DNA of 64,000 bases, taken from the NCBI RefSeq assembly GCF_010730575.1, contig NZ_AP022614.1:3224001-3288000 (forward strand), in the 5' to 3' direction. The DNA comes from Mycobacterium parmense. Lineage in GTDB: Bacteria > Actinomycetota > Actinomycetes > Mycobacteriales > Mycobacteriaceae. A program made the translations under genes and the position numbers. Below the pieces are notes generated by a model. The model saw only the letters and a program-made list of their open reading frames with translations. It had not been told where the DNA came from and did no database searches. Shown in pieces: positions 4,028 through 63,941 of the stretch. Position 1 is the stretch's first letter, and each line of letters begins with the position of its first letter.

Positions 4028-4283
4028 AGCTGTGGTCGTGGAACGTGCCAGGAGTGCGGATTCGCATACGACCTGACCGCTGCGACACAGGCCTGCGACG
4101 ACATTCGGGGTGACGTCGCCGAATTGGCCCGGCTGATTACCACCACCGAACGACGTACCCTCGCGCGGCCGAACGCGCCGGAGGAGGTGACCGCAGGTGG
4201 CCGTGAACACGCTGCACGACGTGCACCACCACCTGCTGGACACACCGCCAACTCGCCCCAACTACGTAACGGACAATCGCTGA
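4028..4283 (+). pseudogene. DinB-like protein remnant, frameshifted with middle missing
   Basis: The frame through 4046 reads CQECGFAYDLTAATQACDDI and continues to ELARLI, matching the zinc-knuckle-like start of a mycobacterial DinB/mycothiol-dependent family. A different frame, from about 4195, reads VAVNTLHDVHHHLLD and ends at TGA 4281-4283, matching that family's C-terminal metal-binding histidine segment. The usual protein is about 170-180 aa, so roughly 80-90 middle residues are gone and the two halves are out of frame. The tail overlaps the end of the convergent NmrA gene by 22 bp. Family assignment rests on remembered homologues. The stretch 3856-4027 shows nothing else recognisable. 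Confidence 0.6.
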
Positions 4284-5392
4284 TTCCACAGTCGGTCGGG
4301 CCCGAACCGGTAATGGGCCGGGTCAGCCGACGGGTCGTGCTCGCTTCGCCACACGGCCGAGTCGCCTGAATACCGCGGTCGGGCCGGCTGGGGATGCTGC
4401 TGGCGCCTGTCGAAGCGATCGAGCCGGTGCGCCGGCACCAGCCCGGTCAGCATGAGATTTCCGATCTCGCGCAGCACTTTGCCCGCGGTGCGCCGGGTGT
4501 CCGCCGCCTTGACGTAGCGGCGCGCGACGGTGAGAAAGTCTTCGGGCTCGACCCCGGCGACATCACGCACGTGAGTGGTCGGTCCGCCCACCTCCCAGCT
4601 GCCCAGGGCGGTCTCAGGCAGGTAATGGCGCAAACCGGACTCGAAGTACATGTCGGCTCCGAGTCGCTTGGCGTTCAGGCGCACCGCTCGCATGAACATC
4701 CACGGGGGAATTTCCATGAGCCGGACCCGCCGGCCCAACGCCTCACCCACCGCTTCGGCAACGTCGGCACCGGACAACAGCTTTGGCCCGGTCGGGCGGT
4801 AGGCGCGACCGTCATGGCGGTGCGGGTCGAGCAATGCGCCCACCGCGACCCTGGCGATGTCCTCGTTGGATGGGGGCGCGTTGAGTCGTCCCCCGGTACT
4901 TGGCGTCGGCAACACCCCGAGTTGGGCCGCAACCGGCAGCACCTGGAAATAGTTGTCCGCGAAGAATCCGGGATCGACCGCGACGTGGGCGGTGTCCGGC
5001 AGCAACTGAAACAGCTTGTCCGACAACCAGTGCTGGCGCGTCATCAGGGCCGGATGCTCGGGGCTGGCCAGCCACTGGCCCAGCGCGACCACGGCCTCTA
5101 CGCCGGCGCCGCGCGCGGCCACGGCAAAGGTGACCGCACTGTCGAGTGCGTGCGGGTGATACGGGGGGTTGAAGAACAACCGATCCACGCCGTCGACCGC
5201 GGCCCGAACGTGTTGAATGTCAAGCATATCCGCGACGACGACCTCGGCCCCCAAGGCACGCAAACGGGCACTGCGTCGATCATCGCGACGTACCAATGCC
5301 CTGGTGGCCACGCCCTTTTCCAGTAATTGGGCCGCCACCGCGCCGCCGATCCTTCCCGTCGCGCCGGTGACCAGCACCCGTGTGTTTGTCAT
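4262..5392 (-). CDS. NmrA-like NAD(P)-binding atypical SDR
   Basis: The protein is 376 aa. It begins with a Rossmann nucleotide site, VLVTGATGRIGGAVAAQLL, then RALVRRDD and a conserved ADM loop, as in NmrA/NAD(P)H-azoreductase-type atypical short-chain dehydrogenases. The start at ATG 5392 is supported by AGGAAGG 6-12 bp upstream; longer in-frame starts would enter the divergent regulator. The C-terminal 60 or so residues are basic, low in predicted structure and longer than in typical relatives. It is divergent from a TetR regulator across 108 bp holding a palindromic operator, so it is probably that regulator's target. The substrate is unknown. Confidence 0.85.
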   Translation of the reverse strand: MTNTRVLVTGATGRIGGAVAAQLLEKGVATRALVRRDDRRSARLRALGAEVVVADMLDIQHVRAAVDGVDRLFFNPPYHPHALDSAVTFAVAARGAGVEAVVALGQWLASPEHPALMTRQHWLSDKLFQLLPDTAHVAVDPGFFADNYFQVLPVAAQLGVLPTPSTGGRLNAPPSNEDIARVAVGALLDPHRHDGRAYRPTGPKLLSGADVAEAVGEALGRRVRLMEIPPWMFMRAVRLNAKRLGADMYFESGLRHYLPETALGSWEVGGPTTHVRDVAGVEPEDFLTVARRYVKAADTRRTAGKVLREIGNLMLTGLVPAHRLDRFDRRQQHPQPARPRYSGDSAVWRSEHDPSADPAHYRFGPDRLWNQRLSVT

Positions 5393-5418
5393 TGGAGTTC
5401 CTTCCTGCGAGATCTGAC

Positions 5419-5464
5419 GATGTGACCAATGGTTACATCGGCAGTATGCGACCGCGATGTGACC
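5419..5464. promoter_or_regulatory. Probable TetR operator between divergent NmrA and TetR genes
   Basis: A near-perfect inverted repeat, GATGTGACC-AAT-GGTTACATC (8 of 9 arm positions pair), lies at 5419-5439. The half-site GATGTGACC recurs exactly at 5456-5464, followed by a weaker inverted match. The two copies are 37 bp apart in the 108-bp divergent intergenic region. The position and symmetry fit binding by the neighbouring TetR protein; the assignment is inferred. Confidence 0.55.
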
Positions 5465-5500
5465 GTTGTCAACATTTGGCGCGCGTGAGATCGTGATGGC

Positions 5501-6124
5501 ATGAGTTCCGCCGGACCCCCCGCCAAAAAGGGCTACCACCACGGCGCGTTGCACTCGGCTCTGATCGAGGCGAGCATCGCCCTGGCCCGCGAGGGCGGAC
5601 CCGATCGGGTGATCCTGCGCGAGGCGGCCCGGGCCGCCGGAGTGTCGCATTCGGCCGCCTACCGCCACTTCGCCGACCGCGAGGAGCTGCTGGCCGAGGT
5701 GTCAAGCTATGCGCGCAGCGAGCTCGCGGCGCAGATGCGCCGACGCGTCAATCGCTCCAACGACCCTCGCAAGAGGCTGCGCGCGGTCGGCGCCGCGTAC
5801 ATCGACTTCGCGATTTCCGAGCCTGGACTGTTTCGCGCCGCATTCACCTCGCATCCCGCGACATCCCCCGACGCGGAGCGCGATCGCGCGACAACGGGCC
5901 CAGACCCTTTCGAGGTCCTCGGTCAAGTGCTCGACGAAGCCCAAGCCGCCGGTCTGCTTGACGCGCGCCGCAGGCCGGGGGCCGAGGTGGCCGCCTGGTC
6001 AGCGGTGCACGGCCTGGCCAGCCTGCTACTGGATGGACCGCTGCCCAGGAGCCCCGCCGCCGTCAGATTCGCGCAGGCCCAGGTGTTCGATCTCATCGAA
6101 CGCGGTCTGCTGAACGACACGTAA
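5501..6124 (+). CDS. TetR/AcrR-family transcriptional regulator
   Basis: This 207-aa protein starts with a classic TetR helix-turn-helix: [44 protein letters not shown], residues about 20-65. The ligand-binding part contains [10 protein letters not shown] and [16 protein letters not shown], typical of the WHG-type C-terminal domain. It is transcribed away from the NmrA-like gene and probably represses both that gene and itself through the palindromes between them. The ligand is unknown. The start at ATG 5501 is the first in frame and gives a family-typical N-terminus. Confidence 0.9.
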
Positions 6125-58727: not shown

Positions 58728-58982
58728 AACTTCTTAAGAGTCCTCGTCTTTGGTTTCGTATCGCTTTTGGCGCCCACTTCGGCGCAACATTGAACACCGA
58801 CTTCGAACGTGAGCCGGTGACAGGAAATTCCTAGGGACTTGGCACACAGAAAGCCGGCGCGCATGACGCACCGTCGGTCAACGATACCTTGTGTATGGGC
58901 CGGACCCAAATCGCTGTAAGGGGAATCGGGCCGGCCGGCACGACCTGCCGCATGCGGCCTGACGAGCGCATACTTGAGCGCG

Positions 58983-60662
58983 ATGACGAAACCAGGTGCC
59001 GGCGGCGCGGCTCAGTCCCGCAAGCCCGTGATGCTGACCGTCGACGACGATCCCGCGGTCTCGCGGGCCGTTGCCCGCGACCTGCGCCGCCACTACGGCG
59101 AGGAGCACCGGATCGTGCGCGCGGAGTCCGGGGCGGACGCGCTGGGCACGCTCAAGGAACTCAAGCTGCGCGGCGAGACGGTCGCGGTGCTGATCGCCGA
59201 CTACCGGATGCCGCAGATGAGCGGCATCGAGTTCCTCGAGCAGGCCATGGACCTCTATCCGGCGGCGCGCCGGGTGCTGCTGACCGCGTATGCCGACACC
59301 CACGCCGCCATCGATGCGATCAACGTCGTCGACCTCGACCACTATCTGCTCAAGCCGTGGGACCCGCCCGAGGAGAAGTTCTACCCCGTCATCGACACCC
59401 TGCTGGACGCCTGGCGCGCCGCGCCCGAGCACCCGATCCCGCACACCAAGGTGATCGGGCACCGCTGGTCGGCCCGGTCCTGGCAGGTGCGCGACTTTCT
59501 GGCCCGCAACGGGTTGTACTACACCTGGTTCATGGCCGACGAGCCGGACGGCGAACGCCTGCTCAACGCCGCCGGCGCGGACTCGCTGCGGTTGCCCGTC
59601 GTGGTCACCGAGCGCGGCGCCACCCTGGTCGAGCCCTCCGACGCCGAGCTCGCCGACACGCTGGGCCTCACCACCAATCCCTCGCAGGACTTCTACGACC
59701 TGATCGTCATCGGCGGTGGACCCGCGGGGCTGGCGGCGGCCGTGTACGGGGCGTCCGAGGGCCTGCGCACGGTCCTCATCGAGCGCACCGCCACGGGCGG
59801 ACAGGCCGGCCAGAGCTCGCGGATCGAGAACTACCTGGGCTTTCCCGACGGCGTGTCGGGCGGCCAGCTGGCCGACCGCGCGCGCCGACAGGCCGAGAAG
59901 TTCGGCGCGGAGCTGATCACCGCCCGCAAGGCGGTCGCCTTGGAGGTCAACGGCCCCAAGCGCACCGTGCGATTCGCCGACGGAGGGGCCGTCGACGCAC
60001 ATGCCGTCATCCTGGCCACCGGCGTCGCCTACCGGAACCTCGAAGCCGAGGGGTGCAACGAGCTGAACGGCTGCGGCGTCTACTACGGCGCCGCGGTGTC
60101 GGTGGCATCCGAATGCGAGGACGAAGAGGTCTACGTGGTCGGCGGGGCCAATTCGGCGGGTCAGGCCGCGATGTATCTCTCCCGCAAGGCCAAGGCGGTG
60201 ACGATCGTCGTGCGCGCCCCGTCGCTGCAGGCGTCGATGTCGTACTACCTGATCCAGCAGATCGAGGCGACACCCAACATCGCCGTGCGCACCTGCACCG
60301 AGGTGCACCGCGCCACCGGCGACGGCCACCTCGAGAAGCTGACGCTGCGCAACAACCGCACCGGCGACACCGAGGACGTCACCTGCGCGCGGCTGTTCAT
60401 TTTCATCGGTGCCGCGCCGCGCACCGAATGGCTCGACGGCGTGCTGGCCCGCGACGCCCACGGCTTCATCCTCACTGGCCCCGACCTGCGCAACGTGTGC
60501 GGCTGGACGCTGGACCGCCCGCCGCACCACCTGGAAACGAGCGTTCCCGGGGTGTTCGCCACCGGGGACGTCCGGTCGGCGTCCGCCAAACGCGTCGCGG
60601 CCGCCGTCGGCGAAGGATCGATGGCCGTGATGCTGGTCCACCGCTACCTCGCCGAGTCGTAG
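58983..60662 (+). CDS. Response regulator fused to Grx-like and thioredoxin-reductase-like flavoenzyme domains
   Basis: Domains of this 559-aa protein in order: (1) a REC domain with D21-D23 acidic pocket, phosphoacceptor D73 in IADYRMP, T101 and K124 (LLKPW); (2) a glutaredoxin-like segment, residues about 150-215, where the active-site CxxC is replaced by SARS in GHRWSARSWQVRDFL; (3) a TrxR-type flavoprotein with FAD motif DLIVIGGGPAGLAAAVYGA, NADPH motif VVGGANSAGQAAMYLS and FATGDVRSAS. The TrxR redox CxxC is absent (GCGVYYGAAVS). ATG 58983 is used; TTG 58974 is an alternative. The sensor kinase gene follows by 4 bp. Phosphorylation probably controls an NADPH-using flavoenzyme; the reaction is unknown. 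Confidence 0.88.
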   Translation: MTKPGAGGAAQSRKPVMLTVDDDPAVSRAVARDLRRHYGEEHRIVRAESGADALGTLKELKLRGETVAVLIADYRMPQMSGIEFLEQAMDLYPAARRVLLTAYADTHAAIDAINVVDLDHYLLKPWDPPEEKFYPVIDTLLDAWRAAPEHPIPHTKVIGHRWSARSWQVRDFLARNGLYYTWFMADEPDGERLLNAAGADSLRLPVVVTERGATLVEPSDAELADTLGLTTNPSQDFYDLIVIGGGPAGLAAAVYGASEGLRTVLIERTATGGQAGQSSRIENYLGFPDGVSGGQLADRARRQAEKFGAELITARKAVALEVNGPKRTVRFADGGAVDAHAVILATGVAYRNLEAEGCNELNGCGVYYGAAVSVASECEDEEVYVVGGANSAGQAAMYLSRKAKAVTIVVRAPSLQASMSYYLIQQIEATPNIAVRTCTEVHRATGDGHLEKLTLRNNRTGDTEDVTCARLFIFIGAAPRTEWLDGVLARDAHGFILTGPDLRNVCGWTLDRPPHHLETSVPGVFATGDVRSASAKRVAAAVGEGSMAVMLVHRYLAES

Positions 60663-60666
60663 ACCC

Positions 60667-62172
60667 ATGACCCCCACGGTGCCGTGCGACCCCGGCGAGC
60701 TGCGCAGCCTGTTCCTGTTCGAGGCCCTCTCCGACGAGCAGCTCGCGGTGCTGTGCAGCCAGGGGCAGATCCAGAACTACCAGCCCGGTCCCCTCTGCGT
60801 CGAAGGCGAGCCGGCGACGTGCTTCTACGTCCTCATCGAAGGAGAGCTGACGATGTCCAAGCTCTCCGGGGGCCAGGACATCGAAACCAACCGCACCTCA
60901 CAGCGCGGCGTCTACTGCGGGGCCTGGCGCGCGTTCACCGGTGGCAAGCAGAAGAGCTACGACGCCTCGGTCCACGTGACCAGGCCGTCGAGATTCTTCG
61001 TCATGGACGCGCCGGTGTTCGCGCAGTTCATGAAGGACCAGTTCCCCATGGCGGTCCATCTGCTCGACGGGATCGCGGTGGGCACCGACCGGACCCGCAG
61101 GATCATCGACAACCGGGAGAAGCTGCTGGCGCTGGGGCGGTTGTCGGCCGGGCTGACCCATCAGCTCAACAATCCCGCCGCGGCCATCGCCCGCGCCGCC
61201 GACGAGCTGCGCGGACGCATCGCCAACATGCGCGGGAAACTGGCGATGCTCGCCGACGGCACCGTCTCGCCGGAGACGCTGAACGCTCTGGTGCGGCTGC
61301 AGGAGGCGGTCGCCGAGCAGGTCGCCAAGTCGGCGGCGCAGAACGTGACCGCGATCGAGACGGCGGACCGCGAGGACGCCGTCGGCGACTGGCTGGACGA
61401 CCACGGTATCGACGGCGGATGGGACATCGCGCCGACGCTCGTCGAGGGCGGCATCGACACCGACTGGCTGGAGCGCATCGCGGCCACCGCCGAGGAATTG
61501 GAGAGTTCGGCTTCGTTGGAGCTGGCGGTCCGCTGGATCAGCTACACGATCGAAAGCGAGCTGCTGATGAACCAGATCTCCGAGGCGAGCAGACGGATTT
61601 CGGCGCTGGTCGCCGACGCCAAGCAGTATTCGCAGATGGACCGCGCCCCCTTCCAGGTGGCCGACGTGCACGAACTGCTGCGCAGCACGCTGGTGATGTT
61701 CGCCGACCGGCTGACCAAAGACGGCAAGCAACCCGGCGCGATCTCGGTGGTCAAGGAGTTCGACCCGTCGCTTCCCCAAATCCCTTGCTTCCCGGGAGAT
61801 CTCAATCAGGTTTGGACCAACATAATCGACAACGCGCTGGCCGCGATGCGCCCCAAGGGCGGCACGCTGACCGTCCGCACCTGCCGGGAGGGCGAAAACA
61901 TGGCGCGGGTCGAGATCTGCGACACCGGCCCCGGCATCCCCGACGAGGTGCGCGAGCACATCTTCGAGCCGTTCTTCACCACCAAGCCGGTCGGGGAGGG
62001 CACCGGCCTCGGGCTGGATCTCGCGTGGAACATCGTCGTCAAGAAGCATCGCGGGGACCTCAGGGTGGAATCCGCGCCGGGCGACACCCGCTTCATCGTG
62101 TTGCTGCCACTCGAGAAACCACCCACCGAGGATTTGTCAGATCCCGACCTGGATGCGGAATCCGCGGAATAG
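60667..62172 (+). CDS. Sensor histidine kinase with N-terminal cNMP-binding-type domain
   Basis: This is a 501-aa soluble kinase. Residues 10-125 form a cyclic-nucleotide-type beta barrel (CVEGEPATCFYVLIEGELTMSKL), but the phosphate cassette is degenerate (GVYCGAWRAFTGG). The H-box is LGRLSAGLTHQLNNPAAAI with H165. An unusual helical insert (about 195-300) separates it from the ATPase domain: N-box QVWTNIIDNALAAM, G1 CDTGPGIPDE, F-box IFEPFFTTKP, G2 GTGLGLDLAW. No membrane helix is present, so it senses inside the cell. It is almost certainly the partner of the preceding REC-flavoenzyme. Confidence 0.9.
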   Translation: MTPTVPCDPGELRSLFLFEALSDEQLAVLCSQGQIQNYQPGPLCVEGEPATCFYVLIEGELTMSKLSGGQDIETNRTSQRGVYCGAWRAFTGGKQKSYDASVHVTRPSRFFVMDAPVFAQFMKDQFPMAVHLLDGIAVGTDRTRRIIDNREKLLALGRLSAGLTHQLNNPAAAIARAADELRGRIANMRGKLAMLADGTVSPETLNALVRLQEAVAEQVAKSAAQNVTAIETADREDAVGDWLDDHGIDGGWDIAPTLVEGGIDTDWLERIAATAEELESSASLELAVRWISYTIESELLMNQISEASRRISALVADAKQYSQMDRAPFQVADVHELLRSTLVMFADRLTKDGKQPGAISVVKEFDPSLPQIPCFPGDLNQVWTNIIDNALAAMRPKGGTLTVRTCREGENMARVEICDTGPGIPDEVREHIFEPFFTTKPVGEGTGLGLDLAWNIVVKKHRGDLRVESAPGDTRFIVLLPLEKPPTEDLSDPDLDAESAE

Positions 62173-62201
62173 CGGTTCCACCCCGGGAGGTTGGAGACAC
62201 C

Positions 62202-63053
62202 ATGACCGACTCAGTTCCAGGCAAACCAAATCTCGGCCGGTTCGGATCGTTCGGACGTGGCGTCACTCCTGCGCAAGCCAAAGAAATCGAGTCTCTGGGC
62301 TACGGGGCCGTCTGGGTGGGCGGGTCACCGCCTGCCGAATTGGCCTGGGTGGAGCCCATCCTGGAGGCGACCACCACCCTGCAGGTGGCCACCGGGATCG
62401 TCAACATCTGGACGGCGCCCGCCAAACCGGTCGCGGACTCGTTCCACCGCATCGACAAGGCCTACCCCGGGCGTTTCCTGCTCGGCATCGGCGTGGGCCA
62501 CCCCGAGGCGCACACCGAGTACCGCAAGCCGTACGAGGCGCTCACGGAGTACCTGGACCGGCTCGACGACTACGGCGTGCCGGCGAGCCGGCGCGTGGTG
62601 GCGGCCCTGGGGCCGCGCGTGCTCAAGCTGTCCGCGCAGCGCGCCGCCGGCGCTCACCCCTACCTGACCACGCCGGAGCACACCGCGCGGGCCCGCGAGC
62701 TGATCGGCCCGGAGGCCTTGCTCGCGCCCGAGCACAAGGTGGTGCTGACCACCGACCCCGAGAAAGCCCGCACAGTGGGCCGCCGCGCGCTCGACATCTA
62801 CTTCCAGCTGGCCAATTACCGCAACAACTGGAAGCGGCTGGGCTTCTCCGACGAGGAGATCACCAAGCCGGGCAGTGACCGGCTGGTCGACTCGCTGGTG
62901 GCCTACGGCACGCCGGACCAGATCGCGGCGCGGCTCACCGAGCACCTCGACGCCGGGGCCGACCACGTGCCCGTCCAGGTCCTGACCAAGGATGAAAACC
63001 TGGTGCCGGCGCTGGCCGAACTGGCGGGGCCGCTCGGACTGAACCCGTCTTAA
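62202..63053 (+). CDS. LLM-class F420-dependent oxidoreductase, paralogue 1
   Basis: The 283-aa luciferase-like barrel has LQVATGIVNIWTAPAKPVADSFHRI, GRFLLGIGVGHPEAHTEYRKPYEALTEYL and AAGAHPYLTTPEHTARARELIGP. This layout belongs to the mycobacterial subfamily with predicted F420 use (M. tuberculosis Rv3463 type). GGAGA precedes ATG 62202. It follows the kinase by 29 bp and precedes its paralogue by 21 bp, so all four genes probably form one transcript. The substrate is unknown. Confidence 0.9.
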   Translation: MTDSVPGKPNLGRFGSFGRGVTPAQAKEIESLGYGAVWVGGSPPAELAWVEPILEATTTLQVATGIVNIWTAPAKPVADSFHRIDKAYPGRFLLGIGVGHPEAHTEYRKPYEALTEYLDRLDDYGVPASRRVVAALGPRVLKLSAQRAAGAHPYLTTPEHTARARELIGPEALLAPEHKVVLTTDPEKARTVGRRALDIYFQLANYRNNWKRLGFSDEEITKPGSDRLVDSLVAYGTPDQIAARLTEHLDAGADHVPVQVLTKDENLVPALAELAGPLGLNPS

Positions 63054-63074
63054 GCAAGCAGAGAGGGACCCAAG

Positions 63075-63941
63075 ATGACCGAGGCAATAGCACTTAAGCC
63101 CGACCTGGGCCGGTTCGGCGTCTGGCTGCCCAACCGCTCGATCACTCCCGAAGTGGCCACGGGCATCGAATCCCTCGGATATGGCGCCGCCTGGATCGGC
63201 TGGTCACCAGACGCCGAACTGGCCTGGGCCGAGCCGGCGCTGGCGCGGACCAGCTCGCTGCAACTGGCCACCGGGATTGTCAACATCTGGACCGCGCCGG
63301 CGCCGACGGTTGCCGAGTCCTTTGCGCGCATCGAGAGTGCGTACCCGGGAAGGTTTCTGCTGGGCGTCGGGGTGGGCCATCGCGAGCACACCCAGGAGTA
63401 CGTCAAGCCGTACGATGCGCTGGTCAGTTACCTCGACGAGCTCGACGCCGCGGATGTGCCGACCAGCCGCCGCGTGCTCGCGGCGCTCGGGCCCAGGGTG
63501 CTGCGGTTGGCGGCGCAGCGCAGTGCCGGCGCCCACCCGTATCTGACCACACCGGAACACACGGCCAAGGCACGTGAACTGGTCGGCAACTCGGTTTTCC
63601 TGGCCCCGGAACACAAGGTGGTGCTCACCACCGACGCCGCGGAGGCGCGCGCGGTCGGCCGCCAGACCGTCGAAACCTATCTGGGCCTGAGTAACTACGT
63701 GAACAACTGGCTGCGGCTGGGATTCACCGAAGCCGACGTGCGCAAGCCGGGTAGCGACCGGCTGATCGACGCCGTGGTGGCCTACGGCACCCCGGACGCC
63801 ATCGCCAGGCGCCTCGACGAGCACCTGCAGGCGGGCGCGGACCACGTGGCCGTCCAGGTGCTGGGCGCCGGCGACGACGAGGCACTGTTGCGTGCGCTCG
63901 GTGAATTGGCGGGACCGCTCGGGCTAACTCCTGCAAAGTGA
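63075..63941 (+). CDS. LLM-class F420-dependent oxidoreductase, paralogue 2
   Basis: The 288-aa protein is clearly duplicated from the preceding gene: LQLATGIVNIWTAPAPTVAESF, GRFLLGVGVGHREHTQEYVKPYDALVSYL, SAGAHPYLTTPEHTAKARELVG and LAPEHKVVLTTDAAEARAVGR align without gaps. Differences cluster in the N-terminal loop and after residue 195, which may alter substrate choice. It is the last gene before rmlB, 28 bp downstream. Confidence 0.9.
   Translation: MTEAIALKPDLGRFGVWLPNRSITPEVATGIESLGYGAAWIGWSPDAELAWAEPALARTSSLQLATGIVNIWTAPAPTVAESFARIESAYPGRFLLGVGVGHREHTQEYVKPYDALVSYLDELDAADVPTSRRVLAALGPRVLRLAAQRSAGAHPYLTTPEHTAKARELVGNSVFLAPEHKVVLTTDAAEARAVGRQTVETYLGLSNYVNNWLRLGFTEADVRKPGSDRLIDAVVAYGTPDAIARRLDEHLQAGADHVAVQVLGAGDDEALLRALGELAGPLGLTPAK

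Follow-up and report, generated by a model that had tools for sequence, protein, structure and literature searches.

The window analysed here is a stretch of 64,000 nucleotides from the genome of Mycobacterium parmense (5.95 Mb, one contig; NZ_AP022614.1, positions 3,224,001 to 3,288,000). It carries a gene for a fusion of a receiver (REC) domain to a flavoprotein, followed by a gene for a sensor histidine kinase and by two genes for LLM-family enzymes. These four plus-strand genes are flanked by infA and rmlB (divergent) and are separated by 4 nt (REC to kinase), 29 nt (kinase to LLM1) and 21 nt (LLM1 to LLM2), as an earlier note on this DNA had read from the open reading frames. The domain calls of that note hold in Pfam and NCBIfam, which give Response_reg with Pyr_redox_2 for the first protein, cNMP_binding with HATPase_c for the second, and TIGR03620 for both LLM proteins. 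The first two genes and their key residues are the following.

58983-60662, plus strand: flavoprotein of REC, glutaredoxin (Grx)-like and thioredoxin reductase (TrxR)-like domains, 559 residues (open reading frame; Pfam/NCBIfam; AlphaFold2 model, pLDDT 87.9)
59199-59201, plus strand: D73, predicted phospho-acceptor of the receiver
59469-59480, plus strand: SARS (S163-S166), the glutaredoxin CxxC position without cysteines (profile alignment to Rv3198.1, PDB 2lqo)
60087-60098, plus strand: GAAV (369-372), the TrxR CxxC position without cysteine (alignment to TrxR)
60114-60116, plus strand: C378, lone conserved cysteine in the next helix
60667-62172, plus strand: soluble sensor histidine kinase, 501 residues (Pfam; alignment of 84 kinases; model, pLDDT 79.1)
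61159-61161, plus strand: H165, predicted phosphorylated histidine of the kinase

The flavoprotein frame was taken to start at the ATG at 58983; a TTG at 58974 and an ATG at 59031 are alternative starts.

The flavoprotein and kinase genes occur together. A protein search with the whole flavoprotein gave only Mycobacterium among the matches listed, and the breadth of the family therefore comes from genome scans, from which 80 named loci (16 from Mycobacterium and 64 from other genera) were taken as the best-scoring among the matches listed. The closest relatives by REC protein, at 91% identity, are named Mycobacterium (again among the matches listed). The kinase gene lies directly 3' of the REC-flavoprotein gene and on the same strand in 80/80 of the named loci, with a median gap of ~6 nt and a single outlier of ~1.3 kb. 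We also surveyed 148 Mycobacterium genomes, 98 of them carriers of the REC gene and 50 non-carriers; a genome holding only the cNMP-type relative described below was not counted among the 98. A genome-wide kinase search found the kinase in 97 of the 98 carriers, the one exception (G048) having its REC gene at a contig end, and the non-carriers yielded only a degraded kinase fragment of 196 residues (G089). On an rmlB tree of 55 genomes the carrier label changes 8 times, at least 4 of them on well supported branches, and the pair would therefore have been gained or lost several times as one block. Decay of the REC gene is seen as well, the gene being split in two genomes (G076, G125). Judged from these gene orders and distributions, the REC-flavoprotein and its kinase are one unit.

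Variants of this arrangement were encountered. Two tandem kinase genes stand behind the REC gene in the Mycobacterium loci L080, L084, L194, L197, L198 and L200, the first of the two in L197 appearing broken, and on a plasmid of the proteobacterium Caballeronia sp. NK8 (L075) a kinase gene of this kind flanks the REC-flavoprotein gene on both sides. Extra kinases of the same family (44-54% identity) lie away from the infA-rmlB locus at G077:C1:4444948, G041:C48:19017, G056:C1:3137787 and other places. A divergent universal stress protein gene upstream was also considered and set aside; only some of the Streptomyces loci have it.

The residues of a phosphorelay are preserved along with the pair. 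Residue counts were made on 137 flavoproteins, 125 linked to a kinase and 12 orphans; L193 and L214, where the REC gene is split, were excluded, as was L225, an orphan with a broken gene. The acid pocket, aspartate, threonine and lysine of a response regulator (D21, D22, D73, T101 and K124) are unchanged in all 125 kinase-linked proteins. The orphans belong to a group of 13 distant relatives (38-51% identity) for which no such kinase was seen within ~5 kb to either side, or as far as the contig reaches; the 12 that could be aligned keep D73 in 4, T101 in 1 and K124 in 6. Their flavin part is conserved while the receiver decays, as expected if the kinase is the reason for keeping the receiver chemistry. 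On the kinase side, H165 is invariant in both alignments (84 rows and 38 rows), and the boxes of a histidine kinase, the N-box LNQVWTN together with DTGPGI, FFTTKP and GTGLGLD, are largely conserved in the 84 aligned kinases. Pfam scores HATPase_c at 79.9 bits and HisKA at 20.1 bits, under its cut-off of 26.9; in the predicted model the dimerisation helices are split by a helical insert. D73 and H165 sit where the earlier note had placed them, and the pairing, combined with the invariance of D73, is strong comparative evidence for the kinase acting on D73.

The same note had proposed a cytosolic kinase with a cNMP-type input domain, and a response regulator whose output is a flavoprotein and not a DNA-binding domain. 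The input domain was recovered by Pfam as a cNMP fold (cNMP_binding, 31.8 bits against a cut-off of 27.5), and a cytosolic location fits the domain content and the predicted model. By eye, the canonical phosphate-binding Glu/Arg pattern is present neither in the window kinase nor at the conserved positions of the 84 kinases, and cAMP is for this reason not assumed as the ligand. The output is indeed a flavoprotein, and Pfam gives no DNA-binding domain in either protein.

The flavoprotein output has the FAD/NAD(P) fold of TrxR. Over residues 234-559, the part spanned by the structure-alignment rows (the REC and Grx parts fall outside), it resembles TrxB (PDB 5uth, 2a87, 5mh4) and AhpF in its two-domain architecture, with ~30-34% identity over the aligned structures; it differs from them in the loss of CxxC, in the added REC and glutaredoxin-like domains and in having a kinase partner. 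Compared with the TrxR-like ferredoxin-NADP reductases (Bacillus FNR, PDB 6gar, 3lzw), it is distinguished by its REC and Grx-like N-terminus, and we saw no sign of a ferredoxin partner in the present analysis. When it is aligned to TrxR, G369 takes the place of the first CxxC cysteine and 372/373 that of the second, and none of the 137 proteins has a cysteine in columns 369-374. A stray CxxC elsewhere was found in 1 of the 137. Ordinary TrxB is encoded twice in the own genome, both times with CATC. The score against TIGR01292 (thioredoxin-disulfide reductase) is 223.8 bits, below the cut-off of 343.45. The NADPH motif of TrxR is HRRxxxR, of which the flavoprotein keeps only R411; NADPH, named as the cofactor by the earlier note, is thus not established, and we write NAD(P)H.

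The middle domain, used as a profile, matches the M. tuberculosis glutaredoxin Rv3198.1 (mycoredoxin-1; PDB 2lqo, E 1.1e-6). The two share the fold, and WCGYC of Rv3198.1 is aligned to WSARS in the window protein, which has SxxS for CxxC. The domain gives no PDB match as a single sequence, and Pfam does not recognise it in the window protein; Pfam Glutaredoxin weakly matches 3 of 17 family members (best E 0.0016). The order of its elements in the model, beta-alpha-beta-alpha-beta-beta-alpha, is that of the thioredoxin/glutaredoxin fold. Of the 137 proteins, 110 have S163 and 122 have S166; position 163, the place of the first catalytic cysteine of glutaredoxin, never holds a cysteine, and position 166 does so in 3. 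With CxxC lost in both domains, a complete thioredoxin-type relay has seemingly been preserved in its folds but deprived of its chemistry, and many FAD/NAD(P) positions are invariant in the family although both disulfide sites are gone. The predicted model fits the TrxR structure 5mh4 (title FR) at 2.2 Å, and 5mjk and 5w4c (titles FO) at 7.4 Å and 5.1 Å; the closer FR match fits a protein that no longer swings a disulfide to the flavin. On these residue counts, the output is predicted not to be a working thioredoxin-reductase-type disulfide enzyme.

The lone cysteine C378 bears on the opposite view, namely that the protein is a true disulfide reductase of the thioredoxin or mycoredoxin type that uses other cysteines, C378 for example. 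This cysteine is kept in 122 of the 125 kinase-linked proteins (against 1 of the 12 orphans), some public records name the family 'fused response regulator/thioredoxin-disulfide reductase', and single-cysteine flavin reductases exist in the superfamily (YpdA/Bdr). Nevertheless, C378 is at the far end of helix 372-378 in the AlphaFold2 model, and the vacant CxxC place, the SxxS of the Grx-like domain and the low TIGR01292 score all argue against disulfide exchange, so that we regard this alternative as very improbable. If the family is without disulfide chemistry, the name 'thioredoxin-disulfide reductase' in records and experimental papers is wrong.

The neighbours of the pair outside Mycobacterium point to a candidate partner. 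A small zf-UBP protein (PF02148) is encoded 3' of the kinase in 35 of the 64 non-mycobacterial loci and close by in 1 more. At the Mycobacterium pair locus it is found in 0/16, the UBP gene of the own genome lying at 346.5 kb of C1. Close orthologues (matches of at least 150 bits, plus a split gene in G102 at 100.7 bits) are present in 69 of the 98 carriers versus 0 of the 50 non-carriers (Fisher 4.7e-19, kinship not corrected). Of 4 intermediate pairs, 2 have the UBP gene nearby, as does 1 of the 13 orphans, and it adjoins 3 of the 3 single-chain cNMP/Grx/TrxR-like relatives that we read, that of the own genome (C1:4873174-4874871) included. These single-chain proteins share the Grx-like and TrxR-like module without CxxC and, by eye, the same lone cysteine, whereas a cNMP-like domain in cis replaces the REC domain plus kinase; no kinase lies near the gene in the 3 loci read. 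From these gene neighbourhoods and distributions, the UBP-type zinc finger would be a better-supported partner than the LLM genes.

The single-chain relatives also bear on the direction of control. The flavoprotein could be the sensor, its NAD(P)H/FAD state controlling the dephosphorylation or availability of the receiver, with the receiver serving as a phosphate sink or as feedback on the kinase. Invariant FAD/NAD(P) positions in a protein that has lost both disulfide sites would suit such a role, as would the lack of a DNA-binding domain in either protein. However, the fusion of a cNMP-like domain to the Grx/TrxR-like module with no kinase nearby suggests the flavin part as output, and so do the orphans, in which the receiver has decayed but the flavin part is retained; we therefore consider the flavoprotein unlikely to be the sensor.

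In the own genome, a class III cyclase reading frame overlaps the start of the UBP gene by 4 nt (L244, 4734-6005 and 6002-6355; C1 ~345.2-346.9 kb). A cyclic-nucleotide signal from this cyclase was entertained and dropped, as no cyclase stands beside UBP in 20 other Mycobacterium genomes (one cyclase-like match is 2.4 kb off). A full-length relative, 38% identical, is found at 4228-5838 of MT838110.1, a record labelled human-faeces bacteriophage that may be bacterial DNA.

The remaining features of the locus belong to the LLM genes.

62166-62192, plus strand: SigH-type promoter motif GGAATA-N18-GTT of the LLM unit (motif scan)
62202-63053, plus strand: LLM1, predicted F420-type oxidoreductase of TIGR03620, putative separate unit (NCBIfam, open reading frame, own promoter motif)
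63075-63941, plus strand: LLM2, predicted F420-type oxidoreductase of TIGR03620, in the same putative separate unit, adjoining rmlB (NCBIfam)

LLM1 and LLM2 score 387.3 and 375.1 against TIGR03620 (cut-off 219.8) and are predicted to use F420. They are 67% identical to each other, in keeping with the duplication seen by the earlier note. That note had further joined all four genes in one operon, in which a phosphorelay steers F420-linked redox chemistry through the LLM enzymes, and had named the separation of LLM genes from the pair in most genomes as evidence to the contrary. Shared strand and short gaps favour such an operon, and LLM genes do follow the pair within Mycobacterium, in 16/16 named loci and in the 57 carrier loci described below (mostly picked for that proximity). 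Outside Mycobacterium they are separated from it, standing beside the pair in 0 of 64 loci, and 136 of the 148 Mycobacterium genomes have LLM relatives, in 98/98 carriers and equally in 38 of the 50 non-carriers.

The LLM genes also have a promoter motif of their own. We read 77 Mycobacterium loci, a selected set made up of 57 carrier loci (the 16 named loci, the window and 40 regions mostly picked for an LLM gene nearby) and 20 non-carrier loci (of the 50 non-carriers) selected via LLM matches. LLM genes are thus present in these loci by selection, which does not apply to the presence of the kinase or to the promoter counts. The LLM gene adjoins rmlB in 20 of the 20 non-carrier loci, with infA on the other side in 19. 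The SigH-type pattern GGAAYR-N16-18-GTT was searched within 250 nt, with the expectation taken from a dinucleotide shuffle. It precedes the first LLM gene in 49 of the 57 carrier loci (0.50 expected) and 11 of the 20 non-carrier loci (0.09 expected), or in 47/55 and 11/20 when 2 duplicates among the 77 are removed. Elsewhere in the carrier loci it was found before REC in 0/57, before the kinase in 1/57 and before the second LLM gene in 1/55. In 54 of 60 motif-positive loci, GTT ends 9-10 nt 5' of the first in-frame start codon. The window motif, with a spacer of 18, overlaps the kinase stop codon and its GTT ends 9 nt before the ATG of LLM1. In two genomes where kinase and LLM genes are ~1.8 and 2.1 kb apart, the motif remains at the LLM genes.

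A comparable gene is known from the SigH regulon of M. tuberculosis: Rv3463, an LLM gene beside infA (Rv3462c), has 573-fold SigH-dependent expression in the data reported in PMC4803200, and is treated as a hypothetical protein in the relevant part of PMC6414722. GGAATA-N17/18-GTT stands at the corresponding place in Mycobacterium loci. The window differs in that LLM is present twice and that the REC/kinase pair intervenes, and Rv3463 is likened by gene position, not sequence. The LLM pair would accordingly be placed in the SigH stress regulon alongside Rv3463, as a second unit that lies beside the kinase pair by position only. Since only 28 nt part LLM2 and rmlB (start ~63970), rmlB may under stress also be transcribed from the SigH-type promoter.

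The four-gene operon with F420 chemistry was rejected as the principal explanation in view of the conservation of the pair without LLM genes, the 0/64 count and the separate promoter motif, and we give it very little credence. Of the earlier proposal, the clustering of four genes on one strand stands and the single operon is not supported; a phosphorelay acting on a redox enzyme is upheld for the kinase and flavoprotein, without the F420 linkage or the LLM enzymes as part of the system.

Two side observations concern these regions. In four Mycobacterium loci that lack the pair (L162, L167, L169 and L170), infA and the LLM gene are ~2.3-2.4 kb apart, with other sequence between them. The two trxB genes of the own genome (L003, C1 845.8 kb; L004, C1 4184.5 kb) are near-identical, and only one has an upstream SigH-type motif.

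We therefore propose that the locus probably consists of two neighbouring units, a kinase-gated flavoprotein pair (A, 58983-62172) and two F420-type LLM oxidoreductases under SigH control (B, 62166-63941). In unit A, a signal would be sensed by the cNMP-like N-terminal domain of the kinase, which would autophosphorylate at H165 and then phosphorylate D73 of the receiver. The receiver could then move against, or dimerise, the flavoprotein with its Grx/mycoredoxin-like and TrxR-like FAD/NAD(P)H domains. Most likely, either the phosphoryl state would control whether hydride passes from NAD(P)H by way of FAD to an acceptor other than a dithiol, or the flavin state would gate the binding of a partner. 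The leading candidates for the partnership are C378 and the UBP-type zinc-finger protein. A wider and more tentative suggestion, which may well prove wrong, is that in many actinobacterial genera and on the Caballeronia plasmid this phosphorelay switches a disarmed thioredoxin system that acts on or through the UBP protein, a form of NAD(P)H/flavin signalling without thiol-disulfide exchange. The kinase-flavoprotein pair, with its candidate zinc-finger partner, offers a clear system for testing whether phosphorylation can act on flavin chemistry directly.

Several observations weigh against the two-unit proposal. The link between D73 and the kinase may rest on few events, because the 12 orphans are only distantly related (38-47% identity) and perhaps one clade; in the orphan L217, moreover, just 0.9 kb of contig follows the gene, and a kinase further on may have been missed. 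Further family kinases lie off the locus in some Mycobacterium, so that the kinase partner need not be unique. The Z and root-mean-square deviation values derive from a predicted model, and the flavin domain, lacking CxxC, might have no catalytic activity and serve a structural role only. As to the zinc finger, 28 of the 64 non-mycobacterial loci are without UBP in the stretch read and 29 of the 98 carriers are without a close orthologue. At the looser threshold of E 1e-20, UBP is found in 74 genomes, including one non-carrier (G120) whose weak match stands beside a single-chain cNMP-type gene. When kinship is considered on the rmlB tree, 4 strongly supported independent pairs remain, in which UBP agrees in 2.5 on average and opposes never, which is not significant. 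The exact SigH motif is missing within 250 nt in 8 of 57 carrier and 9 of 20 non-carrier loci, of the two trxB genes of the own genome that served as positive control, one has it ~40 nt upstream and the other does not, and the motif is compatible with read-through from the kinase gene.

In the open-licence literature searched, no paper was found that assigns a function to this family or deals with the gene pair and a UBP zinc finger. MSMEG_1516 is presumably the M. smegmatis member of the family, which its ~60 kDa band and its 36% identity to Rv3913 fit. Among response regulators with enzymatic output, the REC/TrxR-like domain fusion is already in print, and the passages of PMC5847659 that give it carry no kinase, CxxC loss, UBP partner or function. 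Under the name thioredoxin disulfide reductase, with the band size and Rv3913 identity just given, MSMEG_1516 is described in the pertinent section of PMC7474061 as co-purifying with the toxic mycobacteriophage protein Wildcat gp145. It is also listed in the ClpC1 interactome (PMC10433963) and is under-represented upon VapC overexpression (PMC10745673).

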